From Phytoseiulus persimilis (Eukaryota > Arthropoda > Arachnida > Mesostigmata > Phytoseiidae), in contig CM075101.1 of NCBI GenBank assembly GCA_037576195.1, positions 5,704,001 through 5,768,000 on the forward strand: DNA of 64,000 bases, read 5' to 3'. How positions within the stretch are numbered: position 1 is the stretch's first letter; the number at the start of each line of letters is the position of its first letter. The position numbers were made by a program, and so were the translations under genes. Under the pieces are notes generated by a model. That model made no database searches, was not told the DNA's origin, and saw only the letters and a program-made list of their open reading frames with translations. This document shows positions 696-57,342 of the stretch, in pieces.

Positions 696-850
696 GTGAT
701 TCCGAGGTCGATCTCACCATACTTTTGGGAGCCTACACAGGTGGTACCGGGATCCATCTCAACACACTTCTCGGAGTCTGGGGAGGTGAATCCGGGGTCG
801 ATCTTACCACACTCCTCGGAGTCTAGGAAGGTGAATCCGGGGTGACCATG
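696..850. repeat. 45-bp minisatellite, about 3.4 copies
   Basis: Units begin at 696, 741, 786 and 831, each starting with GTG followed by a near-identical block (for example GTGAATCCGGGGTCGATC). The period is exactly 45 bp and the fourth unit is cut short. The copies differ at several positions, so the array is not recent. Because 45 is a multiple of three, the plus strand stays open through the array and would encode a 15-residue repeat of the type V-x-P-G-S-I-x-x-H-x-S-E-S, but there is no other evidence of coding. Confidence 0.85.
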
Positions 851-2268: not shown

Positions 2269-2343
2269 GTCGTCGCGGTGACTCTCAGCCGAATGCCCAT
2301 TCCGATGAAAAAATAATTCTTCCAGCACGATAAGTTGGCATCA

Positions 2344-2349
2344 AATAAA
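2344..2349 (+). terminator. poly(A) signal AATAAA of the small gene
   Basis: A canonical AATAAA 76 bp beyond the stop codon at 2268, in an A/T-rich stretch that contrasts with its surroundings. The position fits a short 3' UTR. Confidence 0.45.
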
Positions 2350-6424: not shown

Positions 6425-6629
6425 AGGAACTGACGTTCAAACAAATCTCAAATATGAAGATGGTTCAATGCGCGGGCTGCGAGCGACCCATTCTGGACCG
6501 ATTCCTACTACACGTCCTCGATCGATCGTGGCACGCCAAGTGCGTGCAGTGTACAGACTGTCGGTGCAGTCTGAGCGAGAAGTGTTTCTCGCGCGACGGA
6601 AAACTCTTCTGCAGAAACGATTTTTACAA
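6425..6629 (+). CDS. Lim1: Lim1 copy A, coding exon 1 (LIM domain 1)
   Basis: The coding part starts at ATG 6454 (MKMVQCAGC) or the second ATG at 6460, which corresponds to the usual start of vertebrate LHX1 (MVHCAGC). A good acceptor (GTCCCTCGTGCAG) ends at 6424 and an in-frame TGA lies at 6367-6369. The exon therefore probably begins at 6425 with a short 5' UTR, and a non-coding first exon lies further upstream. The donor is ACAA|GTAAGT at 6630. The exon carries the complete CX2C-X17-HX2C-X2-CX2C-X16-CX2D set of LIM1 and leaves a split codon (phase 2). Confidence 0.93.
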
Positions 6630-12600: not shown

Positions 12601-15600
12601 TTGCGGACTCGCGTAACTTGCGAGATATTTCCGATCGATCCCTACCGCACGCACACATAAGCATCGTGCGATTCACGCTCATCGCCTAGGAAGCTGAACG
12701 GTCTAGATTCACAAGCGATCGTGTGTGAAGTGCAAGTGCAGAGTCTCCCGAGAGCTCACATCGAACGTCTCCACTGCGTTCGGTTCCACCTCTCAACTGA
12801 CGGATACGCGGCATTATGTGACGCGGAGCTTCGGAAGGAGGGCACAGGTTCCTCGGGCTCTTTCGATCATATTTCTACCATCGTTCATTCATTTCTCCCC
12901 GCACGCTTCCTCTCTGGCCGCGGCGGCTCCCGACGGTCCCCGGTCCTCCTCCATCTCGGGTGTTCGTTTCATCGAGCCCGCACTCCCGGCGAGCGGGCCA
13001 ACATTCTCTCAAGAGACGTCTTACATCTTGGTCAGGAGGATTTGCGGATTTGGAGACGAGGAAATTGGCTGTTCGATTTTACCATCCGACTAACTACAGA
13101 GGGAAAGCGTCGCTTAACCTCGTTGTGTGTTTCTCGTAATCGATCCGGTCGTGTTTGTGCGCCCCAATCGATGGACCGCTCGATTGGTCGACCCACCAGT
13201 TGCTGGATCATGACCCTAGGAGAAACCCATATTTTAGTCCTTGGATCGAAGCGCGTGATCGTTACAACCTTGAGCAACTTGTGGCGCGATCGCGTGTCGG
13301 CGCTCATCCCAGGTCTAATTGTAGGATTGCTCCGAGGAGATCCACAAGATGAATGCTCCTCGATCCTCCTCCTCCTGGACAAACACAAGCGGAGCGACAG
13401 ACAGAGTCATAGATACAGAGGACGAAGGCCCAGATGAAAGGGGACCACAGTACGATAACGAAAACGACGATGCACCCGTATTTGCTCGCTGGTTGGTTCA
13501 GCGGAGAATTATCTTCCTCGTAGCATCTCCTCGATTGTTGGTCCAGCAGGCCTAATGATATCCGCCCCTATCATTTTGTTCCGTGATACATTGATGACAT
13601 TGGTGAGCTCGCTTCGCCTCTGGATGTAGCCTCCGCCGACACAACTCTTTCGGGCAAATGGCGGACTCGGTGAAGTCCCGTTCGGCCTCGCGACGAATCG
13701 CGAGGCCGCACCACCTCTCCGCGACAAATATTTGGGTCATAAACTCTGGAGGCACCGAAGGCACAATCGATCGGATCGTGTCGGAAATGCCACCGAAGAC
13801 ATCCGAGAAGGAGCGATGAAACCAGTTCAGCTCTCCGAAACCTGTAATTACGGCAATTTCTGAATGGGTGCCCTGTCGCCTCCTCCTCAACTATCGAGGG
13901 AGTCCAGGCCGCGAGTCCGATCCCCGGGGATTACCGAGTGGTGAAATCTCGAAACAATCATCACCTGTTCAATCTGTTTAGCGAGGCGAGAGAATAACGT
14001 GAGCCATCTCCTTTACAGACGTTTCGGAACGAAATGCGCGGGCTGCGCTCAAGGAATATCCCCAACTGATCTCGTGCGGCGAGCTCGATCAAAAGTTTTT
14101 CATCTGAAATGTTTCACGTGTCTCGTCTGCCGCAAGCAATTGTCCACAGGGGAAGAGCTTTACGTTTTGGACGAAAACCGATTTATCTGCAAAGAAGACT
14201 ACCTTAACCAGAGACAGCAGGGTGAGTCGAATTCCCGTAGAAAAATCAACACTTGGGCACGAAAATTGTCAAAGATTCCGAGCTGAGGCAAACGTCCTCG
14301 CGAACTGTCGACGAGAAGCTCGGAAGGTGCACGAGTAGGAAGAACGGTTCCGGAAGGACGCCGAGGAGCCGGACTCAGCCCCACGTCCGAAATGCGGCCG
14401 CGAAATGTGCTTTCAGGACGCCACCGACTGAGAGCTTCCCGTCAGAGGTCGGCGTCAAGAACGAGTTTTTCGTTTTCGTCTAGTTTTTCTTCGTCGTCGT
14501 TTCGTCTGTCTTTCGTTTTCTCTTTGGATCCTATTCGGAGTCGGCGATGTTGACGATGAGCGACGAGTTTTCAAAGCGATTCAGTCTGTCGCTAGACCAA
14601 GCTTCTTCTTCGCTGCAAGTTGACTGTTGCTGGGTCGGTCGTACTGACTGACTGACGGCTCGGCCACTCCATCTCTGGCTGGCCTCTTCAAGAAAAGAAG
14701 TGTCACAACATCGGCTGGTCCGACTTCATTTTCACGCGACAACAAAGGAGGTGAAGAAGACGACGACTCCGAGCTTCGAATGAATCCTCAGTTAGTTGGA
14801 TGGACCTCTCCGCCGGCTCAGGGGAGAACTGCTCAGGGGTCTCGAGTTCTAAAAGGAGCTCCGACGAATCCCCTTTCGAAACTGGGCTCTAAAAACGTAT
14901 TTGGCGATGTGGGAAGCGGTTCGGGGATGAGCCAGTGAAAGTTCCGTCGATGAACGCATGATAGGTCAGGGGCCGAAGTGGCCTTGCGGTGAACAGAGAA
15001 AAAACGTCCGTTCGCCGGTTCGATCGATCCGGCAGCGGGAACATTTAATACTGGTTGAATATTCATTGTGGTTTTTGTTGTTCATCACAAAGGGGGAGAG
15101 AGGCGCGGTCATATCGGCGCGGAGAGCAGTTGTCGTCGGCTCGTTAATGTATTCGGAATAGCGTGAGTGCTTAGTATCAAGGAGGTCGAGTGAGTGGAGT
15201 GAAGTATCACAAATCGATGTCATTGAGGTTTGCCGGGAGAATGGGGAGTGCGCCGAGCTCCGACCGCGAGGTTTACGCTCCCGAGAGGGGCAGGGACCGA
15301 CATCGATAGCCAAAGATGGGGCGAGCTAATAAGCCATAATGTGGGTGATGAATATTTCGCACGCGGCTGCCGTCGCTCGTTTCATTATCGGCGATGTGAG
15401 CGTGCGTGCGCTCGGACGTCGGTCGTATTTCGCCGTGTAGTTCATCGTTCTTGTTGCATTCGGTCGCTTGTCGACAACGGGCACCGTCGGGCGGCCCAAT
15501 CGATTCGGAGTCTCTCTCGAACAACGGTCGAGTCGGACACAACTCGCTTCTCGTTCTTCCCCCTTCGTCCGCAGTGGACGCGCACCACTGAAGTCTCTCC

Positions 15601-24600: not shown

Positions 24601-27600
24601 GTAAGTTACTGACTGACCTTCCCTGGTCCTGTATTTTACCTTTCCGCCCCCCCCCCCCCCGAAGCTTCGTTCTCATCCAGGAAACTGTCCAATCGCTCGC
24701 AGCTCCCCCCCCCCCCCCCCCCCCCCCTCCAGGCTCGGGGAAGCATTTCCCGGGCTTGATCGAGGACGGCCGTGAGGAAACTTGAGTCGGATCTACTCAT
24801 TTTGATGGCGAACGGACGAGTTGAGAGAACCGATCCTGGCTCCCGAGCCTCGAGATTGCCTCGATAGTTGTTGCACGAGCTCGACGCAGAGGAGGGGGTG
24901 GACGAGGGTTCAGAGGGTGAAGGTGAATGAATAGATGGATGGCTGTGAATTCGTTGGGAGGAACAAGAACCGTGTGGATAGAGAGAACACCAAGGAGTTT
25001 CGGAGCGGCGGCGGTGTCTACAGCGGTACAATAGGGAACAAGGTGGTCGTCGTCGTCGTCGTCGTCGTCTTAGTAGCCGCCCGAGGGATCCAAGCGGGAA
25101 AGAACGAAGAGGTGGCCAGGTTGCTCCTCTCATGAGTCATTCCGCCACGACCACCGGCGGCCGCAACCTTCTGATAGATGAAGGCACCTAGCGGAGGAAG
25201 ACTCCGGCCTTCGAAAAATGCACATCGCATCCAAATCGCTCTCGGTCGTTGGCTGGTCGTCGTCGTTCCGTTCATTCGCTCGCCTGCCTTCCCATCCGAA
25301 CGACCGCCCGCCTGCCCGCTCCTCGCTTGGATGTCAAATCCATTCATCTTGGAAATGAGCGGAACAGCACAGCTCCTCTAGATTGCCTAAGGGCTCGTCA
25401 AATCCACCTCCAAAAGACCAAAGGGCACCGTGGTCTCTGATTCTTCTGCTCCCCGTCCTGAGCGTGGTCCCTTTTTTCTCGACTAACCTTGATCTCAAAA
25501 CTCACAGCGGCGGCAGGTGGTGGCACGAGTCCTCGTAGGTAGGCGCCGTGAACAATGTCTGGGAAGTAGTCTAACGATCGCTTTCTTCTTCCACAGTGGC
25601 CTCCCCCGGCGACCATTCGCTGGTGCTCGATGAAACCCAGGACAGTCAAACGGATCTCCTGATGGAACGCGAAGTACGCGACGACTCCGTCGAAAGGGAT
25701 CTCATGACGCTGTCGGGCTCTCAGAGCCCTTCCCAGATGCAAGCGGCTACCAACCAGGCCCTCGCGATGACAGATTTAGGACCTCCAAGTCTGAAACGAC
25801 CCGATTCCGGAGGAAGTGGACCCGAATCCCAAATGAACGTCGCCGACGACGGCAACGGAAGCCAGAAACGTCGAGGTCCTCGAACTACGATCAAAGCGAA
25901 GCAGCTCGAGACATTGAAGGCCGCCTTTGCCGCAACGCCGAAGCCCACCCGCCACATCCGGGAGCAGCTTGCCCAAGAGACCGGACTCAACATGCGCGTC
26001 ATACAGGTTCGTGCGTTCGATGACTGAGGTTTGCGCTTCCAGGATATTCTCGCTCAGCCTCATCGACTCCATCCGGCTCGTTCGATTGTCTAGCTGTCCT
26101 GCGCACGCTCCCAACAGGGCCGAGCCTCGTAACATCCTGTTCAGGAGTGCGAACGACTTTCCACCATGCGACTCGAGCCCTTCCGTCAAAACGGGGGCCG
26201 GTGCATAAGTCGGCATTATGCTCCTCATAGACGGTTGGTTGGCCGGCGAATCGGTTGCCGAGTTGCTCGGTCGGTTGGATGCACACGGTGAGCACGTAAA
26301 AGCATAATATCCAATTTGGACTGCACGACGTGCGCTCTCGTAGCTGGCGACATCAATCATTGTCTCCAGACTGACAGGGTGTTTTTTTTAATACGAAAAC
26401 GTGCTCTCGTCGGAATATAACCGCTCTGAGCCGGAACAGTTGTACTCACTACGGTATTGGAATCGCCCAACACGGCGGGGTTTATGGCAATGAGTGCGGC
26501 TTCCGTGACTACAACGGAGATTTAACATCACCGTAAATAACCGGAGCGTATGACATAATGCCTCAGAACAACGGCGGAACAGCCACGACGACGCTCGGGA
26601 AGCCGAAGTTCTCAAGTGGCGTCTGGACTCGATGCCACGCTCTTGGCGGCTCCCAAAACTTCATTTCTGGCCATGCTTACCGAGATTCACTTCTTCGGAA
26701 ATCAGCACATTCGACTGCGCATTGTTCAGACGCGCGTAAGACTCAATCGAAGCTCAAATAACGAATCCCTTATCGGGCTTCCGCAGGGGAAAACGACTCG
26801 AAGTTCTCGACTTGACTAACTTCGTTTTCTTCCCACAAGCTTTCGTCGACGCCATGCGTGCTACGAAATTTGCCCCGATGCACGTCGCGCGCAACGCAAC
26901 CGCTTTCTCAGAATGTTGGCTGAAAGCCACCGGAAAGTCTGAGGCGAAATCGAGCGATGGTCCGCTTCGAGTCGCAGTCAACCGTCGATCATGATCATGC
27001 GATCGCCGGCGTCGTCGATGATCGACGTGCTTTCGCGTTATTTTCATCGCCAGGGCTTGTTGTTTTCGCTCTTGACCCGGTGCGTCTCCAGAACAATCGT
27101 AGGAGGTAACCGGGCTTGAACTCTCTCAGTTCTCCCGTCGTCGTCCCGCTCGATGCGGTGAATCTCGGCTATCGCTCCGGTGGCTCCCTCGAAAAAGGAT
27201 GCCCACGTCTAGAATGAACCTCGTTTCTCGCTCGATGGCATCGTTTCCACCTCCGAGTTCTTTCGGTTGTCTCATTTCATTCGGTCAGAGGTCAGAGCGG
27301 TCGAACATGTCCCACTAAGGGTTAACCTTGGGGTCGTCCGGCCGGCCCCCATCAACCGACCGCGTGGTTCGCAGAAAGCTCGGGCTGATATCCAGAGACA
27401 TCCGAAGACATTGATCTTCTCGTTTTTGAAAGACGTTCCATCGAACAGGATCCGCGTGAGCGGCTCTCAAGTGTCCGAACTGGGCCTGAATTCTTCTACA
27501 GTTCGATGCTTCGGTCAGGGAAGCGCGCGCGCGAAACGACTGCTTTACGGTAGCCGGTGTTTACGTGAGTTATTAGACGTCGGGCCGTTTATGGAAGCTC

Positions 27601-39239: not shown

Positions 39240-40278
39240 ACAGTTTGTTGTCAGGGAGAGAGGTGCGGGATGGGGCAGTTTACGATAAAAACCCACACTG
39301 TTTGCGAAAGAGCGTCATCTGTCCTCAGGGAAACGCTGTACATACATATTGAATACGTCGAGCTCAGCTCGAAATCGGTTGAATGGTGTAAATTATGCTT
39401 GCTCCTCGAACGGCGCACAGAAGGACCGTTCGTGACCAAGATGAAGAGAATGAGCTAGGGTCCCTATCCCGAATCACAACCCGCTTGAGCGAACGAATCG
39501 GAGCTCGAGACCCATCGCTGGTTGATTTCCCGACAGTTCGGTCCCAGACGGAGCGCTTTCAGCTTTTGAGCAAACATATCAATCCGGATGTTGGGGTTCG
39601 AGTACCACTCCGATCGGTCGGGAAAACCTCTTAGGGATGGATATTCACTCGACTCTCGAAGGTCTGTTCTGTCAAAAATCTCATCCGCCGCGAGTGACGG
39701 CGCGGATCATCGATCGTTTCAACACTTTCGCCCTGTTTCGATCATTTCAATCGGAAGACCGCGAGTCAAAGCGGCCGTCTGCGTACGGATCTGCCGTTGC
39801 GACTTCCTGGCGTGCCGTCCTCTCCTAGCACAAATCTCAACGTATCCTAGTCGTACGAGCCCCGAACGCTTACACCAGACGCTGTCGAGAGTCTCTACGC
39901 AGTCGGCAGGCTTCGGCCTGGTCAATCCGATGGGCCCGGGGACGAGTTGTCGACACAGATTGAGGTTTTTGCCTGTTACTTCCTCGTCCGTTCATATCAA
40001 GTGCAAGCCATGTTAGTTGAGAGCGGAAGAGTTCGACGAAAGAGTGTAACCGAATGAAAGCGTAGCCAGGGAGAGAACATTGTGATGTATATGCATGCTA
40101 TCAAGTATTACTAGCGTCATCGACAGGAATATTCCTCATAATGCGGTGATCGTCACTTGGGTCGGAGGCCAGTAGGCTCTGCAGTTTGTCCCCTCCGTCG
40201 GACGACCGCTTCGAATGATCGAGCGTCGGCGACGGACCCGACCAAACGATCACGAGAAACCAACATCAAAAGTATTAC

Positions 40279-40284
40279 AATAAA
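40279..40284 (+). terminator. candidate poly(A) signal for Lim1 copy A
   Basis: The first clear AATAAA that I see after the stop at 39239, about 1.04 kb downstream and followed by a TGTG/T-rich stretch. A variant hexamer closer to the stop cannot be excluded. Confidence 0.35.
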
Positions 40285-43200
40285 CGTCTTCTGTGAGCTC
40301 TTTACACTCACGGCGCACAAGGGACGCGTTTTCACTCCGATTCTCGAGTTCGCCCAATTTCGACACGACTCGGAGCCGGCTCAGGAGAACGAAACGAGAG
40401 AGGGGCCCGAACTCGCCCCCGAGAGCCAGTCGGCAGGCCGAGCTGCCGATCCTTGGAAGCTCGTCCGTCAGCCAATCGATCGCTCGAGTCCGGAGGCGTG
40501 GAGAACGAGTTTGTGTTGGATCGTCAACCAGAGGAACATTGTTCTACTCGATTGGCGTTTCGACGAGAATTCTAGATTTAGATGCGGTGCACGCTTCCAC
40601 CAATTCGACGAAAAGTTTCTACCAGACCGCCTATCGTTCGTTGGGACACAGCTACCAGCAGACAGGTAGGAGCTGGACCTGAGGGGCCCGGGAACCCCTT
40701 CCATGTTTCAGGGTCTCGGAAACACGCTTCGCTCATCCAGTTCGTTTAGTCGACCCGGCACGGCTTTCTTAACGAGCACCCATGGCGGACGTTGTTACAC
40801 ATGTTCCGAATCGCATTGAGAGTCCCCACTCAACGGATCTTCTAGATTTACGAGGGATTCTGTTCCAGCCGTATGACTTCGGACCGATGCGGTTCACGCG
40901 GTCCGCTTGCAACAAAAACCGTTATTTCAAAACTAGCGAATCACAGCTAGCTGTCAGCCGTCGGGATGGCTCTTGCGATCTGCTCCACGAGAGCTAACTC
41001 GCATTTGTGGCACAGCCGTGTCGGAGCGCAGGCCGTGAGAAATGGACCCCGTTCTCTTCACTCGTCGGGATCTTTAGAATTCTTCCATAAATGAGCGCGT
41101 CCACTGAAGAAAAGAGCGAAAATGAAACGCCCGCATGCCTCAGGGCCGCCGACATGGCCGTCCAAGTTGTCATGACGGATGGATTTGTGGTCAGTCTCTC
41201 GCCAAAGTCGAGCGCAACCGGCTGATCTCACCTCATACCCGAAGTTCGGTGATATCTCACAATATGATGCTCTCATGTCCACGAGCTCAGTTACGAGTGT
41301 CGTTCTCCTCTCGGAAGTCGGCCGCCTTTGTAGCGATCCGGCGAGCCGCACGCTCCGAGTATCAACTACGTCGGTCATCTCCGCTGTCACTGTCGGTGCG
41401 TACTAGGCCACTCGGTAATCTATCGTCCTGCTGGGTGCTTTGTCTCCTCTTTGTCCGTTCGATAACTAACTAGTTTGTCGCTTGGTCGCTTCGAGTCCAG
41501 CGGTGTCCACAGTTATGGCCGACCACGTGTGTCGTTTCCTGCGGAGGTGTCTCAGGTGACAAATTACTCTTCCAGCGGCGGCGGCCTCCTCCGAACTCGT
41601 GTTTCCGAAAACTGATTCGGTATTGCCAATAACAAACACAAAAGTCCGGTTTTCGACCAACAGCAATGAATGCGTGAGGTTCCGGTTCTGGACCCGGGAG
41701 ATCGTAACCTCCTCTCTCCGAAGTTCAGAGGGTGGCTGGAATTCGCTCTGTTGACGTCGGCGTTCATCGCCTGAAAATTTTGCTCCAGGAAATGCTGGGG
41801 GAGCCATGCAGGACTCGAGTCTGCGCGACCGGCGGTTCGTCCTCCCGTTCATGAAACTCCCGACGACAGGGAACGGAGGGAATCCATCTCTAAGGAATGA
41901 AGCACTTATTTTTGTCGCATGCGCCCGCTCAGCCGATGAATCCATCTTTCTCTAGACTGCTGTCTTCGAAGCGCCATTTTTTCATCGGTCCGTTCCCGAC
42001 CATTTGTTTCAAGACAAAAACCCGTCGTTGACACTACTCTGGCGAGCAACAAAACAAACGTGAAAGATGTCGCATCGAGAAACTCGCGCAAGGCGACGCA
42101 TCGCTCATCTTCAAGATCGTTTCCTGCTGTCCCGTTTCGCTCGATGCAGGACTGCTTGCTCGGATCGAGCCTTCTTCCTAACTTATTCGTCGGAATCCTG
42201 TGGTTTCTACTCTAGCCAAGCAACGTCTTCTCGCTTCCCCCTCACGTTCCCCGGAGAGTATATTCCTTTCGTTTGACATCGGCGTTTGCAATACACTCCA
42301 GTGACTGATCGTCCTGTCTGACATCCAGATCGACGATCATATTCAACAACACCACCGCCAGGACAACGATGATGACAATGATTACGAGATGGAAGGCAGC
42401 CGCGACGGATTCGTGTGCCCGCGTGACCAGATACGACTCCCTGAGTTTGCGTCCCCAGACTTGATCACGTCGACACCGGGTAGAGAGCGATCCGAATGCG
42501 TGCTCGATGTCGTTTCAAAGACTGTTCTACCGGTCCGGAAACAAGGGAAGCATCCGCCGAAAACGTTGTTGGCTTATCAGTCACTGAATAAGCCCAGATA
42601 AGATTAGCCAGCACGCGAGAGATCCGGGTAGAGTCGGAGGAGCTCCCGTATAAGCAGCCGCCGCGGTCGCGGTCGCTGCAGAACGCAGACATTTGTGGCC
42701 AACCAGCAGAGAATGCTTCAATGTGGAAGGAGAGCGTTCGTCGTCGTGTTTGCGCACACGAGATAGAGAGTTCCGGAGTTGTAATGAAAGGACTCGAAAA
42801 CATCCGAGTCTAAACATTCATTTGCCAGCCGCTTCTTGTGCCGAAACAGGAATTCGCTGCCACCGGGAGGAAGGCTCCGAATTAGAAATATTTTTTAGAC
42901 GCGCAGCCCCTTCGGCACAGCCGAGCATCCACCGGAGCGGGAGGCAGACGGGCGAGCCAAAAAGGGCTCGAATCCAACTCAAATTCTCTACGCCACTAAA
43001 CAACGCACGAGACGCCAGCTGAATGGGTCGGCTCATTCTCGCAGCGTCCGTCGCTCACCCTTTGTCAGTCAGTGATGAAGCGAATTTTTTGGTGTACACT
43101 CGCAGCGCTCTCAGGAGCGTTTTCGCGCAACTGTCTTTCAGCTTGTTCCAGGGGAGTTTGCCGCGAGGGCCTGGAATGAGACCACGACCAGGATCGAAGT

Positions 43201-45077
43201 CAGGCGCTTTCTCGCCGAGTGTCGATTCTGAAGGGGCTCCGTGGAAAGCTGTGGCTTCTCGATTACACGTTGTCTCAACCCGCGGCCGATAGAATGCTCA
43301 GCTGTCGGACCCCGAGCCCAAGCTCCAAAAAATGCTTCGTGGCAATGATCGTTTCGTTTTGGCGGAATAAGCGGACGAAATGTGGAATGTGGATCATTCT
43401 GGCATGCCACGCTTCGTGCTATGTAACCCGTTCGTGTGCGCGGTCCGGGTCACTGGCGAGCGTTGTGTGTATGCGAGACACAAAAAATGCGGCTCACTCC
43501 GCGGTCGGCACAAAAATTGTGGTATGCCGATTCCGAGTCATGATGACAATCAGGCGGAGTCGCACGTCCTGATGACCACTGGAAACGCGAACACAGCATG
43601 CTAGCTATGGGTTTCCCGTTTCCCATGACTGAATTTTCAGCTCTCCTCGCCTACTTCAGAAGACTCCTGTCATTGAATGACTCTGGAGATTCACCCGAGG
43701 CAAGGAGACGACGTCTTGGACGAGCTCCTCCCTCGACATAGCTCCTTAGCGTGGATCCAACGGCCGGCGGAACGTGCCAGAGCAGCGCAGGATGATACAG
43801 AGTTCTCCTGCGGGCCGCGCCTGGGTGACGTCGAGGACCGGGTGAAGTATCGCGTAACAGAAGCCGCAATCACGACAATCACGCCACGATCGGTCGGAAA
43901 TTTCTCTAGGACATCCAGGCTTTGTATGCAAATAGCGGATCCCTCCGCGGGCGAGCGGGTCGCTCTCGGTTTGTCTATTGTCAAAGCGGGATGGTTTGAC
44001 ATTGGTGTGAAGTCGCGCGTGAACAAAATCGCAACTCCGCCAGGTCAAAGTTTCGGCCCCAGACTCGGCGCCCGACAGCGCAGGGGGCAGTTGCCTAAAC
44101 TTCGGCAGCCCTCGCTGCTCTCCTCCACGTCTAAAGAAGCCAAATGATTCACTGCGAGCCACGCGCGATCACTTCACTCTTGATTCACTCCTGCACTGTC
44201 TGAGCGCAGAGTCGAATTCCTCGGATTGTGGGGAACTCGGAGGGCCGCAAGAGTTTCCGACCGACAGTTCGGACGGGGATGTTGCGGTTTTTCCAAATAA
44301 ATACTCAAAACAGCCCGATATTTTCATTTTAAAACTAGATGGTTAAGATTTGAATATCTCTCCCTCGTCGGCCGCGCGCTATTCATCATGATTTTCGGGG
44401 GAGTTCGCGATCCGATATTCGGCAACGCTAGGAACACCGGGAATTTTCAATCATCGTACTGTCCATTCCTCATAGCGAAGGTTGATCGCTCATCCAGCGG
44501 GCCGAGCAGCGGCGAGCGCAACTCAATCTTGTGCTTTGAAACAATCACTCCATCCATCAACGTTCCATCATTCCGGATAGGAACGATTCGGAAAGGCCTA
44601 TCACGAACACAGAGAACGGAAGAGAAAATAATGCTCCGCGTCGCCGGTGAACTTTGATCGTGAACCCAGCCTCTGACGGCTTGCCGCGGAACCGCCCGAA
44701 TCAGGCACAGCTCTCAACCCAAAGAATGGGGAGTGATATCAGAAGCGATTTTCGGTCCATGCAGGCTCAGTATTCGGGCTCGATAATGAGGAGGACGAAG
44801 GACAGCCAGCTTGTCTGCCGAGCGAGCCCGTGTTCCGTTCGGTGACGCCGCGCTCGTCGTCGTTGCATAATTCGGTAGCCATGTGTTGCTGGTGAACGTT
44901 AATCGAGGTGAATGCTCAGAAAGAAGGAGATGAGCTCTGAAACGGCCGCTTGAAGGATGAGTGAAGGAGCCAGACGAGGAGGGGATTGAGCGCCGAAAAA
45001 TTGTAATAGAGCCGCTGGATGCTTAGTGTCGGCTAGATGGCTACAGGACGTCGCCTCTCGACCTCGCGATACTTTAT

Positions 45078-45095
45078 CTCCTCTCTCTCTCTCTC
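45078..45095. repeat. (CT)n microsatellite
   Basis: About nine CT units in the intergenic region between the two Lim1 copies. Confidence 0.8.
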
Positions 45096-47181
45096 CGGAT
45101 GTTGTTTTCGTTATTCCTTACTGGCTCGCGCGCTCCTCCTCTCTCGCCCTCTCTGATATATACCCACTTTGATGATGCGGACCGGGGACGGAAAGAACGC
45201 GCTGGGACAGGCGACGAATCACATACACGCTGGTCTTTATATACGACGAACATAATGACCAAGTCGGCCGTCGCCTCTGAGCCCACGGAGGCCAGCCAAG
45301 ATCAGAAACGCCATTTTTTTTCGTTTTCAAGAACGGCGATGAAGTGGAAGCGTCCCTCTCGCGGAGTTTCTCCACCGTTCTCCGCCACATCGTGTTCACC
45401 CCGGGAATAGGGTAAGGCAGAGAGAAAATGGCAATTATTTTCGTCCGCATATTGATTGCTTTGCGACAGATACCATTTGTCAACCGGCCATCGAACACTC
45501 CGGACGAACGACCGCCCGGCCGCCGCGCGGTCGTTCGGCTACCGCGACTGCAAGCGATCCGAAGCACAAGATGAGCGAGAAATGAGGGAGACTCCGAGAC
45601 GAATATCTCGGGAAGAACCCGACGTGGCGATGGGCGTTGGAAAAGGGTGAACATCTAATCGCCAGACGGTTACAGCTGTATCGAGCGGGCTCTAGTCCTG
45701 TCACCGAAACTCCTCAACAACGGATCCAGCCTCTCCCCGGTCCTGGCCTTCGGTGAGCAGCGAGAAAAAGCAGTAATAGCTGATCTGAGCGGAGGGATTG
45801 CGGAGGCGAAGCTCTGCTGTGCGATGTTTTCTGATCTGGAATCGAGATCTGAGTCTGACGGTTGAAATTCACTGGACTGGTGGATTACTCGTCGATATTT
45901 CATCCTATCAGAAGAGAGGGCTCCGTCCGCTCGAGACGGATGAATTCACTGTCCAGCGGATTTTATCCTGTAGAATGTTCTTCTTTTGACTAATTCATCA
46001 GTGGATTGATTCCTCAGTCAGCCTGTGGAGCTTTTAATATTTGACGATGGCGGCTCCGCTCCGGAGCTCCGTCGAAGAGACGAATCGAACGGGATCTGAT
46101 GTTGGACTTCGAAAAGTCGACTCTCGTAGCGGTAGATGAATTGATGCTTCGAGGCTGGTTGTCCTGCGACTCCATGGTAAGAGGACAGCGGAGGTTGGCT
46201 AGGGCCGAGACGCTTCGGTTGGAATAGAAATCTTTCGACGGATCTTATCATGTGCAGTGTATCGACTCAGCGGTGGTAAAGTTGGCTCGAGCTGTATCGT
46301 GCGCTCTCGCTGAGACGATCCGCGGCAGCGTTGGGCGCGTGCATCTTCCCCAGATTCATCATCGCGCAAGTTGAGGCCACCTTCGCCCGATGGACGGAAC
46401 GGTTCATCTGCTTTTCGGATCGAGTTTTCACTATTCGCCAGATCCTGGAGCCTCCTCCGGTGTCGAGACGACCACAACACGTTCGACCCCGAGACCTGCC
46501 GAAGATCCAATTGAAACATTCAACGCGTTTGATTCTGGCCAACCCATCCATCATATCGGAGTCCAAATCATGCAGAAGCAGTCGCGCTCCGGTCGGGGTC
46601 GTTCGCTGAAAATTTTCTGTTTTGGAGCGGATAGCTTCGCTGAACCTCATTGAAAATCACAATTTTCCGAGGAGGGATCGATGAGTCGTATGAATATGGT
46701 TTGAATCGCGCGACTCAATACGATAAAAACTCGAGAATCCGTGTTGACGGTCGACGATTTCTCTGAATTCCTCCCTGAGTCCGCCATTGTTCCCCGAAGA
46801 GTTGGGGGCGTCCGATTGTGAACGTAGCTTAGCGTACCTTACGCATGAATGCGGCTCTGTCTCGTCCGATACGTCTGAAGGTTGGCTAGTCTGGCAGCAC
46901 ATGCTCCGTCGGAAAGTGTAGCGCACGAGCGCTCGTGCACCTGTTCAGCGTCTCTCACCCAGAACCCGGGCCGAAAAACAGAGAAAAGGGGGCGGACGAT
47001 TTAGGAGCGGAATTCTCGAATCTCGTTCGACGAATATCGCTCCTCCGGTCGATTTTTCGGGATATTTTCAGCAGCGAATGGATGGGACGAGAAGCGAGGA
47101 TCCGAGCGAGAGGAAGATATATTGAACGGAGCGGGATGGATGGACACGTGAACGCGCGGCCGGCGCTGGCCTGCGTAGTAC

Positions 47182-47219
47182 GGGGATTCGAATAACTCTT
47201 CGTCTTAGCGCTTAATCAC
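47182..47219 (-). repeat. tRNA-like fragment, possibly a SINE head
   Basis: On the minus strand GTGATTAAGCGCTAAGAC resembles the D-arm/box A of leucine- or serine-type tRNAs (GTGGTTAAGGCGCTAGAC). It is followed 10 bases later by TTCGAATCCCC, the core of box B. The anticodon region is missing, so this is not a functional tRNA. A decayed tRNA-derived SINE is the likely reading. Confidence 0.3.
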
Positions 47220-47816
47220 CATCCCCACACAGAAGAAGGCGTGTCCAGCGAATTCCTGTCTTCTGGTATTCTCACTTACGACATAATGTTTATGAGAGAG
47301 GAGACGAAATAAAATAATAAGAAAAGTATTTCCTGGCGTTCCGCCAGATTTGTTCATAATAGCCCAACGTACTTTTGCACGAACCACGTACCGAGCCGGA
47401 GGTTCGCGCGCGCGCGACTCTGGTCGGTCGAGAGGGTTCTTCAATTCTTCGCCATGGCTTCTTGTCATGGCGAGGAGTTCATGCAGTCGACGTGAGGAAA
47501 AGAAAATCCCCGAGTCCCCGACTTTTGTGGTCTGCTCGACTGGAGCCCATGTGGAAACATTGGCATACTGTCGAATTCCGCTCTCTGCTCGTTTCAGAGT
47601 TGAGACAGCGGCACACGTTTGCGAATCCGAGAATATTTCCCACAAGCAGATCTAATCATCCGCGATCGGAGCTGTCAACGGACTACAGCTGAGTTTGAGT
47701 TCGGTCAGATTCTCTGTTCGACAGTCGGCCGCGTTCCCGATGAGTTGGGGCAGTTTTTAAACATCTATCCAATATTGGGTCACAGACGTTGCCGCCTGAT
47801 GAATCGAACAGCTTTC

Positions 47817-47927
47817 GGAGTCGAACCCGCAACGTTCTTTGTTACATGTGTCGGAAAACATCGACAACAAGGTTCGTTGTGTTCCGTTGTGGACTGGTGT
47901 AACAGCGCCTTCAGCGACCGATACTCG
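47817..47927 (-). repeat. Pol III box B with possible box A (SINE-like)
   Basis: The minus strand has a perfect GGTTCGANNCC box B (GGTTCGACTCC at 47827-47817). About 80 bases upstream is a weak box A candidate (TATCGGTCGCTGAAGGCG, within about 47924-47907). The spacing is longer than in a normal tRNA and the cloverleaf does not close, so at most it is a tRNA-derived repeat. Confidence 0.25.
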
Positions 47928-50261
47928 TTGGATGACTTCTGAGCCGTCATGTCTGCGTCGGTCAGTTCTCCCAAATTCCGTCCCTTGCAAGAGCTCCTCC
48001 ATGGGCACCTCGTCCTGCTGACCTATCGCCGGCTGGAATCCTAAGTTCGGGATTCTGGGACTCGCTCCGCTCGCGTCCGGAGGGGCTGACTCTGTTGGAC
48101 CCTCTCCGCTCGACGGGAGAGCATTTCCTGATTCCATTCCGAGGGGCAACCGGTCGCAATTTGAGCAGAAATCAAGTAAACAATAATATTCAACAGACAA
48201 GTTCTCCGGTAAGCCGATAATCGCCGATGAGCGAGTGGACCATTTGAGAAGGTTGTTTGAGCTCGCGGTCGCCCTCCAGTATCGTGTATGATGTTTGGTT
48301 CGGTTCGGAGGTGAAGCAGACTGTTGCCGATCGGAACGGTAGACGGGTCTGAAGAGCGGTGTTTGCATAGACGAGCGCGCCGCTCGGAGCAGAAACAATG
48401 GGGAGCCAGATAGGTTTGTATTCGTAATGCCCCTCAATTAGTTCCATTCAGGAGACAGTCAGGTTCACAGGTTACCCCACTGGCTGGGGAAAGCACACAT
48501 GCAGATAGACAGGCAGAGAAATAGACAGTCACTTTGGGAGGCGGGTAGAAGACAGACGGACGTTCGGCATTCGTATCGCTGTTGGGCGGATGAGAATTTC
48601 ATTTCACGGATGATATCAGAACTGATTTATGATGCTTTCGGATACCGTGGACGTCTCGGTCACAACACTGGACGTCTGCGAAGACGACATCCGGGGAGTT
48701 TTGTCTACCCTGGATGTTATGCGTCTGAATCAGACGCAGGGGACGAGATTGTCAGTTTCTCGCTGAGACCTCATTCTCTGTTTCGGAACGCTCTGCGCCG
48801 TGAAGAATAGTCGGTCCGAGTGGGAAAACAGCTGCTACAGGGATTTCAGGAAGTCATCTGACTGAGTGCACACGTCTCACACACTCCTCGCAGGACTGAA
48901 CTGAGTTTTCGAAGCAGACGAAGTTGCGTTCGGGATCGAAGTTGGGCCTGGGACAAAATCGAATTCTTCTGGCATGACAGTCCTTAACTCCGCCTTGGTC
49001 CTCCGCATCGAAACCCGCACCCCATCGAAATCTGAGACCATTTATTTCACGCTCTCATTAGAATACGAGCTCATTTGTAGGTAAGGCGTGGAACATCATG
49101 ATGATGAACATGATCAAAGTTCTGGCCGCATCGAAATAGAAGCACTCTCGTAATGAGTTTCTATGCTAATTCCATGGTTGTTGAAACGAACCATACAGGT
49201 TGTTCAAAAAGACGCATCTGATCTTGATCAAACGCGTAACTCACTGACGCAATTTGCATTCACAGCGTAACGAGAATAATGTTTCATCACGGACACGTAA
49301 GTTGCTTTGTTATCTTCGCAGATTATCATACTGGTTCATCCGTTGACGAGATTGATGAGCTCTTCGAGATCATGATGCACTGAAAAAGTGATTTCGAGTA
49401 CCGATTTCCATCGCTGTCACTCAGACGTCGTGACGTACCACGGTGAACATGTGTGCCGAACTGTTTGAGCTAGTCGCGTAAATGAATTGAGTTTTAGGCA
49501 CTCGACTGAACACTGCCCGGCTGTCACCCGTGGAACAATTCTTCCTTCCGTTCCTTCGTTTCGTTTTAGCATAACAAAACGCCCCGCTGATGAGTGTCGG
49601 TCGCAGATGAGGCTTTCCGAGCAACAGTCGACTTCAGGTAGCTTGAGCAATCATCGTCGCTCCATAATTATGCCTCGCGCGTACATTCGAGAATTCACAC
49701 ACTTGAAGGCGGCGGACGAGTCCATGCGGTGGTGCGGCACCTGTACGAGACTACTGAATCGAGTCTCATGCATCCACGGATTCATGTGATACCTGATGTG
49801 GAAATCGCTCTGGAGTTCTCGTTTCCTGAGCGCTCCGGACCTTACCGCGGGAAAACTCGATCAGAATGTCGCATGAGGAGGCGGAATATCTATATTTGGA
49901 CGGAACGATGCGTTTCCCGCCTCTTCCTGTAGATGTCGTACCCATCCAGATGGATTTATTAATATTGCACTTGAAGTACCTCGACCACGGCACTCCAAGA
50001 GCGAACTTGGACAGTTCGGGCATGTTGCCAGAGAAGTCACCCATTGCCTGTCGATCCTATCTTTGACTTATGGATGACCTCTATGATTTTCCAAATTCCA
50101 GTCAGCACCTGCATAACGCCAACTCGGGAAGTGAAGTATGAGTGACTGCACCTCGAATCATCTGTCGTTTTTGCGCTTATGCGCCGAATGGATAAAAATT
50201 GTTTTCTCAACCGATTTCGTCCCGTGAGACGAACCTCCGATTCCTTGAACTAGTTCGATTA

Positions 50262-50340
50262 GCCACGGCTTGCGATGGAACTTTCCGATACCCGCACTCT
50301 GGACACTCCGATGCTCTACCGATAGGACCCCAACCTGAAA
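50262..50340 (-). repeat. tRNA-like D-arm in a possible repeat
   Basis: The minus strand reads CCTATCGGTAGAGCATCGGA, which is close to the tRNA D-arm (CAGTCGGTAGAGCATCGGA). About 20 bases later CGGGTATCGGAAAG is only a poor box B. No full tRNA fold is possible. It could be another copy of a tRNA-derived repeat, or chance. Confidence 0.25.
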
Positions 50341-52102
50341 GTTCCCTGTTACGGTAGAGTTCCCCGGTCTGGCGTCGGTGGAATAAAGAAAAACAAAGAT
50401 GTACATGTTATAGTTTTGATTTGTTCGCTGCAAACATCTCCTTTATTCATTTGCTCGTATCAGAATGTTGTTTTCGTCATCCTTCCTTTTCTCTCCTCCA
50501 GCTTTTGGGATCATCGAAGTCGGTTCACGGACATCACATAAGGGCTGCTACACAATGCGATACCATCGGTGTACCATTGTCGTCCCCATCGATTCATTCC
50601 ATTCTTGACCATGTTGCGTTTAGGCGCTGCGACACCGTTCAGCAAGAAAGAGCATTAGGTTTTCGAAATGAAATTTTTGTCTCTGTCCACCGAGTGATCT
50701 AGCGCCAATCAATACCAACGCTCCACCTCGAACCTCACGTGACGTACTCAAACCGAAACCGAATTGGTCTGAGGTGACGATTGTAGACGGACAATGTACT
50801 CAATGATAATGTATGCATGCCATCATTCATCAGAAATTTTGTTATGCACCTCTCGCCACGTCCCGCAACTTGAATCGCCAAATCGGAGTTCTCAGAAATC
50901 AGGAACCGGAGGCCTATTACTGCCGACTACATACGCCGTAAGCTACGGATGAAAATGACGCTTCTCCCGAGAGGCAGTTCCGAATTCCGCCGATTTTCAC
51001 AGCTCACAATTGATCACGAAGCCCTTTCGCATGCTCACGGGCTTTTATCAAACGAACGCTCCAGCCGTGTCGAGATATTTCCAGATCGAATCTTTCTTGG
51101 GGTGAAAATGCTACCTAAAATCATTTAAGTTCGATGATCAGCTGATTGAACAGGACAGAAACAGGGGTTTTGGTTGCGAGATCAGCGACCGATTCATCCG
51201 AGAAATTTGAGATCTCTCTTGGAATTCCCAAGGCCGAGCTCGGCGAACCCAGTCAGAACGAGGAAAATATTATTTTCATGCCGGATGCAGTGATTTGATC
51301 AAATCATTCTTTGGGGCGAAGCAATCAAGTCATTTTCAACGATTTGTTCCCTGCCGGAGCGTGAACAGTTGCTGATCGCTCGGAGCGTGCCTGAAGCGTT
51401 TTGTGCGTCTAAAAAACTTGACCTGCGGCGTCCCGATCACCCGCGAAATCATCTAGTCTCGGAATTCAACTGCAGGCCAAGAACTCTCCTCTTCCGAAAC
51501 CTGGTCTCGCTCGGAAACAGGTTCGACCCGAGGAAGCTTTCCATGACAGGGTACGCTTCGAAACTCTCCCACCGAATGAATAACGGAAATCGCGAAAGCC
51601 CTCCAAACTCAACAGCTAGTGTTCAGACGACTGGGGTAAGGGATTCTCCTCATCGAATCACGGAGGGTGTTGGAACCGCCGTCCTCGTTTGATTCCGAGC
51701 TCAGACAGAACTTTCACTGAGGCTCACGCAACATTGTTTCGCTAATTTTCCAGACATGTCGCGCATGCCCCCAACAATGAGGTGGGCTTCGGGTCATTTC
51801 GCTGACACAGTTTGACGTTTTCCTCGATTAGAGCATCGGGGCCAATCGGGAAGAGTAGCATTCTCCCGCTCCGTTTCTTCCGCGACTGATCAGCCTCTAG
51901 TTTTGGAGCTTCAGCTTCGCACTCGGGGAAACTCGCCCTGCGCGGTACTTTCGATTGGAAGAGAGGAGTTCCCGTCCGAGTCGCCGAATCCACGCCCACT
52001 TCAATGCGTGATTCGTTTCCGTGACAATCTCATAAGTAGTCGGCAATCAATCTCTCGAAATACAACCCCGGCAATTGTTATCCATGTTTACCATGTGTAC
52101 AC

Positions 52103-52108
52103 TTTATT
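52103..52108 (-). terminator. poly(A) signal AATAAA of Lim1 copy B
   Basis: AATAAA on the minus strand 186 bp beyond the stop codon of copy B (52296-52294), giving a short 3' UTR. Confidence 0.5.
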
Positions 52109-52293
52109 TACACGAATCAGCCCAGCAGGCTTCCTCAAAATACCTTCCAGATCGCGTTGCCCCATATCTGGGAAGCTCACCGAACAGGGATCACTTGATT
52201 CTACAGTCTGGCGATCGAAACCGAGCGGCGACGGTTTGGCCATTCAGATATTTACCAATTGTATTTCCTAACCAAACTAAGGTCTTCCTCATT

Positions 52294-52487
52294 TTACCAA
52301 ACAGGCGTCTCGTTCGGCATTTGCGTGGAGAAACTGCCGCCTGAATCGCTTCGCGGAGGCTGTCCGTACGGAGGATCGGAGCCCTGCAGGCTCAGCACGG
52401 AGTCCGGACTCGATCTCGGCTGCGAGTTCAGCTGAAGTTCTCCGTGCTGGCCTTGCAGATGGAATGCGTCCGAAGCCATGTTAACTC
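52294..52487 (-). CDS. Lim1: Lim1 copy B, last coding exon (C-terminus)
   Basis: Acceptor CCCTTGCAG|GA (exon 5' end at 52487) to TAA at 52296-52294. It encodes the tail from [16 protein letters not shown] to the terminal P-V-W. RSSPDSV, SLQGSD and [16 protein letters not shown] match copy A. It is three bases longer than exon 6 of copy A, and the first 20 residues are the most divergent part. Confidence 0.94.
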
Positions 52488-55400
52488 CTGCAAGGGTTCT
52501 TTTCCTTTAGGTCGGTTACTCGAACCCCCCTGTCTGAGTCGTAGGGTAGAAACTAGGCCCACCGTTTCTCGGCGAGAGGCTTGGATTCGCAGCGTGCCCG
52601 AACGCTAGTCCTTCGTTCTGCTGTCCGGGAAAAAAGTCATAGAAGCCGGGGCCCTGACCTCCGTTCTGTGTGTAGCCGAAATCTTGGTTCGAGGAGTCTG
52701 GAACGGGAGGAGAAAATCATTAGGATTACGGATGCTTTCTCCGGTCGGAACGACTGCAAGCAGCAGATTGTCGGAGCACGGCATTCCGCTAGATTTGAGG
52801 CAAGACCGGTCATCGAGCCCAGGTACACTCGCTTCCTCAGCCGGGGCTTCTCGGCCAAAAACAGTCGCCCTCGAACCCAAAATATATGAGCGGGTGGACT
52901 CGCGTCCATATGAGCGAACGATCGGATAGCGGAACCAAAAGAAAACCGAGACCCTATGGCAGGCACATGGCCCTAGCCTGGCGTGCCGGTCGGAATAAAT
53001 AGATGCTGTCAGGAGGGAAGGCTTCCTCGGTCTACTCGAGCCATCGCGGTTCCAAGAGGAGGGCGCGGGAGAGAGCGAGGGGGAGAGAAAACAGCAAGAA
53101 AGAATGGTCAGACTTGTTCGATCTTGTCAAGCGCACCGAGCCGCCCACCGTTGTGAACAAAGCAACGCGTCAAAAGCCTCCCCTCTAATTGTTTGACGAA
53201 TGGCGAATTCGAAGGCTTGTCTTCCCTACGCCCGCCCCCCTTTTCCGTGTCCACAGCCTCCGTAAGATAGGGTTGCGAACTGGTCGAACTGAAAACAGGG
53301 AGCCGATTCGTGCGTTGTCCGCCAAAAACTGGATCGAGCCGGATCCGCCATGCGGACTTTCGTGCAAATGGCACGATCGACACCTCTTGGGTTGAGGTCA
53401 GCGATCTCTCACGCTAGGAAAAGACACGAGAGGGGACGCCGACTTAATCTGAGGATGAGGACCAGTCTATCAGTCGTTCGCTCCGTCGACTCGTCCGTCT
53501 GGGTGTCTGAGCCCGGCTGGTTTGTAGCAACCCGAAAAGCGACGAGACGGAGGGCTCTGACCGCCCGCCCGCCTGCCTGCCTGCCTGTCTGTATACGCTC
53601 TGCTGAGCCGATAGCGAGGCGAGCTCTGTAATTGCCTCGCGCTCCTATGTCACATGGGGGTTGCTTCTCTTCTTTTCTCATCTCGGCCGACTGCAGCACT
53701 GCCAGCAGCGGCAACGCCAGCAGCGGCCGAAGCACGACCGATACCACCGCCGGTAGCTGCAACTTGACAAGCAGCTCCCCGGGCAACCGCCGGCTAGTGA
53801 GAAGTCCATTCGCACGAACGACGTTGGTCCAGCGTTTGTTCTTTGCGGGGCCCGGCGAGACTTGCGCAGGCCGGCTCTGCAGTTTCGTGCGAACGCAGAG
53901 AGAACTCGCGGCGGGAACGAAGTCTACGAGCGAGTAATACGCTCAAGACTAGGCAAGAAACACCGCGCGGTCGATTGCTGGGAAGTGGCAGCGACAAACA
54001 AAAGAACGGCCAGACGCTCCACAAGTGTGAGAGCATGGAAATCGCGGCTCGTTTTTTGCGCTGTGGTTCCATTCATTCGCTCATGCTCCCGGTCTGCTCG
54101 GGAATATGATCTATCTCGAAAGGAAGACTGTCACTGACAGACACCGAACGAACGAACGACCAGCCAGCCCGTCAGTCAGGTCACGTGATCGACTTCGGGC
54201 AGATTCCGGACTCGGGGGCGGATTCGGAGCATAATCAAGAATGCAGCAGCTCAACGTCGAATAAGAGCTCGACAATGCCGTGCGGAAAATTGTTGATTCC
54301 GTCGAGAGGAGCTCTTCGGAGATGAGCCAGTCCGAGGGGGTCGATATTTCCCGAGAGGTCTTCGGGTGCCCTCGATCGTGGACCGCGCGCGCGTTTCGGA
54401 ACCAAAATTCAGCCGTGAACGACGAAAGTGGGTTCGCGAGTTCTCTTTCGGGCCGGATCGCGAGCCGTCGACGCGCGGCTGGGCGATTCCACAGCTCCAA
54501 GAGAACGACCGGACGTAAAAACGGTGTTTATAAAGTGCAGACCGCGACCGAGCACAATGATATGTTGGGAGTCAATCGCGGATCCCTCGGCTCCGAAAGC
54601 TATAATTTTGAGTGGTGCTGAATCTGTGCGCCGAATGAAGACCTCCTCTGCTTCGCTCTGTTTCCTCTCGCTCTATTTCTCGTGATCTCCGTGATTGCTG
54701 CCGTTGACACCTATCCGTCGCAGCCACGCATCACACAGCTCGAAGCAAATATTTGCTCGATCCAGAAGTGCCGTCAGAGCGACGAAAACACGCAGAAGAA
54801 AACAGTCCATTGATATCTCGGGCTCGCCCGGTAGCGCGGCACCCTTTGACTTCGGTCCTTCACTCTCGAGCCTTTTTCACGACAACCAGAAGTCCTCGAC
54901 TCGATTCTGTGTCGATCTAATCCGCCGAAGGGTGGATCAGCGAGCGCGGCGGCGCAAACGACGGAGTCCTGTCCGTGTGCCGGAGGAATCTCGGATCACC
55001 AGGTCGAAAATCTACGGCGGGGTATTTTCTCCGAACACTGACTGCTTCCCCCAACGGTGGCTGGCCTGTGGGCTAGCTAGCTGGCTGGTCGCAGCGAGCG
55101 GACGAACAAATCGACAGACATTAGCTCCCGACAACACGACTTGAGATCAGCTCCGCCATTCTGCCCCCTCATGATAAATGAGAAGACAACTCCTAACTCG
55201 AGCAGATGGTTCAAGGAAACGCCACGACGCACCGAAACGGACGCACTCGCAGCAGCCCCGGCGAGGTCCGCGAGGACACATTCGAATTCCGGTGGCCAGA
55301 AACCGCGCTGCTGCTTGCCCCGGAGCTCGTGAGATTTTCTCATGCAGGAACTCGCCGGCTCCCGCTCGATGCTCTTCCTGTTCTTGACTCGGCAGCTTCG

Positions 55401-57342
55401 GAGGACTTCCTCCACTGAATGCGAAAAGATGTCAAACCAGCCGGATAACTACGTTCAGACAAACTTTGCACAGATGCCGTGCAAATAAGATTTCGTCCGA
55501 AGCAACTCATTTCCGCCACTTCTTTGTGGGCGGCGAGATGAATCTTTCTCTCCGCTATCTGCCGGCGTGCATAGCGACGTGGCCCTGTGCGAACAAGTAA
55601 GCCACCCAACAGACAACCCAAACAGCTGCCCTCGCGCGCTCGCAGCCAGCTCGCTGACTTGAAGCTGCCCTGGGCATGAAGATTGTTGACTTTTTTGTGA
55701 TAGTGTCGGGCTCGAGAAAACATGGAATGGAGTCCAATCGTGGCCTGTGGAACGGGCGCTCAAGTCTCCTAATTTGATCTTGGAGCGCTTTTCCCCGTAG
55801 AATTCCATCTTCTGGCTCCCCGCCCCTGATTCTTCCTCCTCTCCCTCCCTGTCGGCCCCGCTCTTTCCTCCTCTCCCTTCCTGTCGCCCCCGTTGCGCCC
55901 ATCTCGAAGTTGTGCATGCAACGATCCGCCCCTTCCCGCAAAACACGTAGCGGTGCTCTCAGGGTTCCCTTGCGGAGATGTTACCAACGTAAGCGTTTCG
56001 TAACCGGGCAGCCCCGTTACAAAAAAGGAGTCACGTTGTCGAAGCGACCAGCGTTACATGAACGCATGGTAACGTGCACGTGACGTGGTCCGAGCAGGGT
56101 CGGACTGTTCATTCCGAATTCATTCCTGCAGCCGGGCAGTTCGTCGAGCGATTCGCCGGCTATGTAATAGTCATCGCCAACAGCAGCCACATCTGTCACT
56201 TAGATAAGTTTGTTATCGTTTATCGGACACGGGACAGCTCCATTCAGATCTCGTACACTCGCGGACTTGTGTATGGGAAATATCCACGCGAAGTGCGAAC
56301 CCAGTCCGTGTCGGAAACGTTCAAATATCGACCTTTCATCGAGTCGGACAATGTGACCGAGTTTCCCGGGTTCCTCTTATGACAACGCTGAGTCGGGATC
56401 GTAGTCTTACGGAAACGAGTGGAGACTGTGTTAAGCAAGTTCGTGTTGGAGTGCAGCTAACAACGATCTTTGCGCCAAGATCTGAACCCCGCCGAATAAC
56501 TGATCCGCAGTCCGGATCGGAATCATCGTTTTGCAACAGCGCCGAATCGTCGAGGGTCGAAGTCGAAAGCCGCACTCTCTGTTTTCTCCATCGCTGGTGA
56601 TGTTTGAACGCTGAATTCGTTCACTGATGATCGAAATTATGCTTCGTCTTCTGCAGCCACTTCAGAGGTCGGTTGGTTGGTTGACTGGCCGGCTGGCAGG
56701 CTGGCTGGCGCGTCGGCCAGCAGCTCGGTTGGGAGGGGTCTTGAACCGATTACTGGCGGGCATTGCCTTCAAGTTCATTTTCTGACTCGCCTCTTCTCCG
56801 GCGTCGACGTTGTCGGCGCTGCTGCTGTCGTCTACTTTGGCTCCAAAGCTGGTGCCCCAAAGCCATTTCTTCAGCTCTTTTTCTCTCTTTTTTTTTTTAA
56901 TTAACTCCTGAGACACTTCATCTACCGGGACTAGATGAGCAACGAACATTTTGCTGAAGTGAGATCTGGCGGCTCGGCTCACTTCTCGACTACAGCGAGC
57001 TCGAGCGGGTTCTCATACTTTTTTTTTTTTTTTTTCGAACCATGCACCTATCTATCGAGCAGCCGAGTCGACGGTCGAAGCTTGCCTCCCCGAAAGCTAT
57101 CCTCGGCACGAATGTTGGATGGAACACTCACCAGAGAAGTAACCGAATCCGTTCTGGGGTCCGTTCGGACCTCCTCCTTGTCCCAAGAGATCTGGTGGCG
57201 AATCATCTAGAGGGTCAGGGCTCATCCCGGGCCTCATGGACCTCATAACCCGTCGCGGACTCCGGAAAAAATGCCGCCGAGCGCCGAGTGTTGTGAGTTG
57301 CTTCATCCTCCGCTCTTTCGAGCGTCGATTCTGAAACCAGAC
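52294..57342 (-). CDS. Lim1: Lim1/Lhx1-5 LIM-homeodomain gene, copy B (3' part: last three coding exons)
   Basis: Join on the minus strand 57342-57132, 52697-52563, 52487-52294, giving 179 residues to the stop. It starts at the homeodomain recognition helix ([15 protein letters not shown]) and contains the whole C-terminal tail, with the YDFFP motif and terminal tryptophan. Intron positions and phases (0, 1, 1) are identical to copy A. All splice sites are GT-AG, there is no frameshift or premature stop, and the spliced sequence still reads as a protein under selection, so it looks functional. The exons for LIM1, LIM2, linker and homeodomain helices 1-2 are not found between 57343 and 64000 and should lie further right. 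It is convergent with copy A and diverged from it, so it is a paralogue rather than an assembly duplicate. Confidence 0.93.
52488..52562 (-). other. Lim1 copy B short intron (75 bp)
   Basis: GTGGGC donor and TTGCAG acceptor with a pyrimidine-rich stretch. It equals intron 5 of copy A in position and phase but is 566 bp shorter. Because GTGGGC is a modest donor, the alternative is read-through: the frame stays open for a further 16-17 codons and then stops, which would drop the conserved C-terminus. Confidence 0.85.
52563..52697 (-). CDS. Lim1: Lim1 copy B, penultimate exon (YDFFP motif)
   Basis: A 135-bp exon, exactly as long as exon 5 of copy A, with the same phase 1 entry and exit. The acceptor is CCCGTTCCAG|AC. 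It encodes D-S-S-N-Q-D-F-G-Y, then [15 protein letters not shown] and [11 protein letters not shown]. Confidence 0.94.
53561..53592. repeat. (CCGC)n to (CTGC)n compound microsatellite
   Basis: CCGC units grade into CTGC/CTGT units in the copy B intron. Confidence 0.75.
57019..57035. repeat. poly-T run (17)
   Basis: An uninterrupted T17 about 95 bp from the copy B exon at 57132. On the minus strand it is an A-run just inside the intron, and a shorter T-run lies at about 56888. Confidence 0.85.
57132..57342 (-). CDS. Lim1: Lim1 copy B, exon with homeodomain helix 3
   Basis: Acceptor CTCCTTTTCAG|GTC (exon 5' end at 57342) and donor TCTG|GTGAGT. It encodes [15 protein letters not shown], the arginine-rich [20 protein letters not shown], and [12 protein letters not shown]. 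It then has a glycine-rich insertion of six residues relative to copy A, before [10 protein letters not shown]. The 211-bp length gives phase 0 in and phase 1 out, matching the 193-bp exon of copy A. Confidence 0.96.

Follow-up and report, generated by a model that had tools for sequence, protein, structure and literature searches.

Two convergent Lim1 (Lhx1/5) genes in Phytoseiulus persimilis, a probable old inverted duplication with intron 4 elements kept in both copies

Lim1 is a dosage-sensitive developmental regulator, and a locus of Phytoseiulus persimilis in which two Lim1 (Lhx1/5) copies face each other raises the question of whether both are kept as genes in their own right, or whether the second is a relic, part of another transcript or a product of assembly. 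A preliminary description of the window (the whole stretch of DNA that was analysed, 64,000 nt) had proposed two intact paralogues, converging with stop codons 13 kb apart and derived from an old inverted local duplication. We regard it as likely that the window contains two adjacent convergent Lhx1/5 genes from such a duplication, both kept by purifying selection and both retaining elements in intron 4.

Structure and identity of the two genes

On the plus strand, splicing of open reading frames yielded a complete Lim1 (Lhx1/5) gene, gene A, with six exons (6454-39239) and a CDS of 1308 nt encoding 435 aa. Its reading frame is free of internal stops, and all five introns (7389, 11375, 5986, 6087 and 641 nt, in order) are of the GT..AG type. 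On the minus strand, gene B is represented in the window by exons 4-6 only, from the interior of the homeodomain to the stop codon, i.e. 179 codons and TAA without an internal stop; its introns 4 and 5 measure 4434 and 75 nt. The coding features and the spacer are as follows.

6454-6629, plus strand: gene A exon 1, translation start and LIM domain 1 (spliced ORF; Pfam LIM, E 6.1e-16)
14019-14221, plus strand: gene A exon 2, LIM domain 2 (spliced ORF; Pfam LIM, E 3.9e-19)
25597-26006, plus strand: gene A exon 3, linker and homeodomain profile positions 1-45 (spliced ORF; Pfam Homeodomain)
31993-32185, plus strand: gene A exon 4, last part of the homeodomain and beginning of the C-terminal region (spliced ORF; search with LHX1 protein)
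38273-38407, plus strand: gene A exon 5, FYDFFPGQQ region (ORF self-comparison; spliced ORF)
39049-39239, plus strand: gene A exon 6, including the stop codon (ORF self-comparison; spliced ORF)
39240-52293, no strand: spacer between the stop codons (six-frame Pfam scan, no match at E 0.01)
52294-52487, minus strand: gene B exon 6, stop codon TAA at 52296-52294 (sequence, splicing)
52563-52697, minus strand: gene B exon 5 (ORF self-comparison, splicing)
57132-57342, minus strand: gene B exon 4, last part of the homeodomain and beginning of the C-terminal region (ORF self-comparison, LHX1 search, splicing)

Intron 5 of gene B (52488-52562) is thus 75 nt long, compared with 641 nt in gene A.

The product of gene A carries an N-terminal pair of tandem LIM domains (two stretches matching Pfam LIM, E 5.6e-33) and a homeodomain (Pfam, E 1e-20), both above cut-off. 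The homeodomain is identical at 60/60 positions to that of the human LHX1 sequence used for comparison, and LHX1 and LHX5 of vertebrates belong to the same family as genes A and B. The best relative of known structure is LHX4, with 54% identity over the LIM pair; no relative of protein A was found among the viral and prokaryote contigs scanned. Gene A also has a C-terminus of Lhx1/5 type, with an FYDFFP-like block and a terminal W when set beside LHX1. The YDFFP block and the terminal W are present in gene B too, and the C-terminal ends of A, B and LHX1 (AAVW / PSIW / TPVW) are alike. Gene B is further tied to the Lhx1/5 group by its intron positions, introns 4 and 5 being shared with gene A, and by identity to A at 137 of 170 residues.

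The pairing of the two genes was recovered in several ways. Self-comparison of all ORFs of the window gave three exon pairs, on opposite strands, and a search of the window with the LHX1 protein found five Lim1 exons at E <1e-11, four in gene A and one in gene B. When the six exons of gene A were compared with the window by tblastn with the low-complexity filter off, exons 4, 5 and 6 matched gene B at E 6.5e-21, 8.1e-23 and 4.7e-18, respectively. Gene models and tblastn thereby bear out the convergent arrangement first described, with 13,054 nt between the stop codons. Beyond gene B, exon self-matches and pairings of LIM1 with LIM2, the best tblastn match was one of gene A exon 6 to 37814-37969 on the plus strand (28.6%, E 1.5e-4), which was set aside as compositional.

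The front half of gene B lies outside this picture. The window extends 6658 nt upstream of its exon 4 (57343-64000), and no LIM or homeodomain match was obtained in this interval with LHX1, with gene A exons by tblastn or with a six-frame Pfam scan. Of the gene B homeodomain, the window contains no more than the final 12 profile positions, a fragment that scores 14.9 bits against a Pfam cut-off of 22.9. Intactness is therefore demonstrated for gene A alone: of the two intact paralogues originally claimed, the first is complete, and for the second the LIM domains and most of the homeodomain are absent from the window. The failure to find these exons in 57343-64000 would also be expected if gene B were a partial duplicate of the 3' half without 5' exons of its own, surviving as a relic or as part of another transcript. 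We consider this unlikely, for two reasons: since intron 3 of gene A already measures 5986 nt, an intron 3 of more than 6658 nt in gene B would be unremarkable, and the exons of gene B that can be seen keep their frame, their splice sites and a low dN/dS at a nearly saturated dS, as described below.

Divergence and selection over exons 4-6

Introns 4 and 5 interrupt genes A and B at identical positions and in identical phase (1 and 1), and exon 4 begins in both at the same codon, in phase 0, after AG. Over exons 4-6 the two proteins differ through substitutions at scattered positions and through three in-frame indels, without internal stops. In these respects the preliminary description, which had noted common intron positions and phases and small in-frame indels, holds for the part of the pair that can be compared, i.e. 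introns 4 and 5 and the start of exon 4. At codon positions 1, 2 and 3 there are 28, 12 and 92 differences in 170 codons. Fourfold sites differ at 47 of 71, where 74% would be expected at saturation, and these differences are spread evenly across exons 4, 5 and 6 (21/31, 13/20 and 13/20), making recent gene conversion unlikely. At one position gene B keeps an LHX1-like residue that has changed in gene A (LGARRH vs LGPRRH, with LHX1 as reference), and B is therefore more than an eroded version of A.

Divergence of this order bears on whether the inverted pair could be an assembly artefact, in which two haplotypes of one Lim1 gene were joined in opposite orientation, a caveat that had been raised together with the original proposal. 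With 33 of 170 codons differing in amino acid, 47 of 71 fourfold sites differing, intron lengths of 6087 vs 4434 and 641 vs 75 nt, and introns that are mostly unalignable, A and B are far more divergent than alleles. Misassembled haplotypes are accordingly rejected as very improbable, an argument that does not extend to a mis-join of two real paralogues.

Pairwise estimates by four methods over 170 codons, without an outgroup, gave dN of 0.117-0.133 and dS of 1.27-2.32, the latter poorly fixed because it is near saturation, and hence dN/dS of 0.055-0.10. The 97.5% bootstrap limit of dN/dS was 0.14, from 186 usable replicates of 300, the other 114 having been dropped because dS was undefined. 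Had one copy drifted freely, a dN/dS of 0.5 would be expected; since the observed values lie far below this, both copies appear to have been constrained during most of their history. When neutral drift of exons 4-6 was simulated at 0.65 substitutions per site, a mean of 6.2 stops was gained and 0.15% of 2000 runs remained stop-free. The frame of gene B, its splice sites and the low dN/dS at near-saturated dS speak against a decaying copy. The earlier proposal that selection maintains both copies is thus supported over exons 4-6, and the age that it assigned to the inverted local duplication agrees with synonymous sites near saturation.

The phase 0 junction between exons 3 and 4 has a further consequence, in that exon 3 of gene A and exon 4 of gene B would together form a full homeodomain. 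In Drosophila mod(mdg4), 3' exons on the opposite strand are trans-spliced. Exons 4-6 of gene B might likewise provide an alternative 3' cassette, joined to exons 1-3 of gene A by trans-splicing, and a single locus would then yield Lim1 proteins ending in either of two C-termini, one encoded on each strand. It is because this junction and the lack of exons 1-3 of gene B in the 6658 nt upstream permit such splicing that we assign it any probability; ordinary duplication accounts for everything observed, and we think trans-splicing highly unlikely.

Under the favoured reading of two separate genes, an old inverted local duplication would have copied Lim1 in its entirety or, at a minimum, the intron-containing 3' half. 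Gene A encodes a complete LIM-homeodomain factor, whose two LIM domains would bind LDB/Chip-type partners and whose homeodomain would bind TAATTA-type sites. Gene B would most likely encode a second such factor, with exons 1-3 beyond position 64000. Purifying selection would have kept both genes, which have drifted apart mainly in the C-terminal region.

Paired elements in intron 4

Short stretches of similarity between the two genes were also found in non-coding DNA. Two pairs are located at the ends of intron 4, and a third, weaker candidate at the end of intron 3.

32403-32440, plus strand: intron 4 5' element, copy A, with TTAATTAA at 32407, 218 nt downstream of the donor site of exon 4
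56850-56908, minus strand: intron 4 5' element, copy B, with TTAATTAA at 56897, 224 nt downstream of the donor site of exon 4
37207-37232, plus strand: intron 4 3' element, copy A, 26 nt, 24/26 identical to copy B, 1041 nt before exon 5
52992-53017, minus strand: intron 4 3' element, copy B, 295 nt upstream of exon 5
31035-31059, plus strand: intron 3 element, a weak candidate, copy A, local score 31.7; its partner is at 57902-57928, minus strand

Local scores were tested for six pairs of non-coding intervals, four of them homologous and two mismatched, with 300 dinucleotide shuffles each. Both ends of intron 4 reached a score of 42, which none of the 300 shuffles equalled (shuffle maxima 33.0 and 34.8), nor did any of the 600 non-homologous pairs of real sequence used for each size (1000-nt pairs for the 5' element). 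The end of intron 3 scored 31.7, again with 0/300 shuffles as high, yet 7 of 600 real non-homologous pairs reached this value, which makes the element a weak candidate. Between A and B no similarity remains in the first 1500 nt after the stop codons (278/300 shuffles score as high), and the mismatched pairs gave no signal (277/300 and 90/300). In a comparison of whole intervals, with 40 pair-block shuffles each, intron 4 alone exceeded its shuffles (34.0 vs 31.1 bits); intron 5 and the entire intron 3 had no significant A-B similarity.

A hidden exon was considered for both elements and rejected. In the 5' element all three frames of gene A carry stops; in the 3' element A and B share one open frame, which is not followed by a GT donor. 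From their sequence the intron 4 elements are judged to be non-coding, and they are probably regulatory. The octamer TTAATTAA occurs twice in the entire window, once in each 5' element, where 0.5 occurrences would be expected from base composition. TAATTA is a LIM-homeodomain core, and the palindromic core of TTAATTAA suggests homeodomain input, possibly auto- or cross-regulatory. The 3' element contains TGACAG, which we take to be a Meis/Hth-like core. Intron 4 of both genes keeps at least two short elements, and these, retained while the remaining intron drifted beyond alignment, are specific candidate DNA.

Comparison with other linked duplicates, and surroundings of the pair

The vertebrate LHX1/LHX5 pair has a separate origin in genome duplication, and its members are unlinked. 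The genes engrailed and invected are transcribed in opposite, converging directions. As treated in passages of PMC4965088, PMC13017635 and PMC10455198, they are adjacent homeobox paralogues long kept in insects, and in Drosophila these neighbours have common enhancers (PMC4965088, PMC13017635). Genes A and B resemble them as neighbouring homeobox paralogues maintained over long times; unlike the EN-class pair they belong to the LIM class, and it is their conserved intron elements that suggest enhancer sharing. In bab1/bab2, linked transcription-factor duplicates of BTB/POZ type, one intergenic enhancer that predates the duplication serves both genes, according to the relevant part of PMC8959175, whereas A and B each keep intron elements of their own. 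By analogy with other linked homeobox paralogues, the mite genes may have overlapping regulation, with partial redundancy or subfunctionalisation; a division of labour between them would be one outcome.

The closest precedent is the house spider Parasteatoda tepidariorum, for which PMC6107062 describes two similarly expressed Lhx1/5 paralogues that lie on the same scaffold, besides a third copy elsewhere. Both genomes thus hold two linked Lhx1/5 paralogues, and the present pair adds to the evidence for local Lhx1/5 duplication in arthropods. According to the same paper, tandem pairs of the spider other than Pax4/6 run in one orientation; genes A and B point towards each other within some 50 kb, and the tail-to-tail layout is therefore the difference. 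The main text of PMC10726417 makes no mention of Lhx1 or Lim1, and in a search of the literature on Lim1/Lhx1 duplication a convergent Lim1 pair was not found among the matches listed, PMC6107062 alone being on point. What is new here is the tail-to-tail Lim1 layout together with intron 4 elements kept in both copies. A convergent Lim1 pair kept for so long would be a natural case in which to ask how regulation is shared out between linked homeobox duplicates.

Around the two genes, six-frame Pfam scans took in 1-6453, 39240-52294 and 57343-64000 and yielded two matches, neither of which reached its cut-off (DUF7455, E 0.0026; HTH_Tnp_Tc3_2, E 0.00037). No tRNA was found in the window, and no Rfam family reached its gathering score. 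The HTH_Tnp_Tc3_2 match belongs to a decayed remnant of a Tc1-like transposase on the minus strand at 1-655, where HTH_27 also matches below cut-off (E 0.0029). Tandem repeats were noted at 695-843 (45-nt unit, 3.3 copies) and within intron 3 of gene A at 31217-31270 (21-nt unit, 2.6 copies). The window as a whole (1-64000) has a G+C content of 54%, near the 52% tabulated for the mite Metaseiulus occidentalis (PMC5467014) and farther from the values for Tropilaelaps (44%) and Varroa (40.9%). Its CpG observed/expected ratio is 1.13-1.24, i.e. no depletion, and the two features together are unusual among most arthropods.
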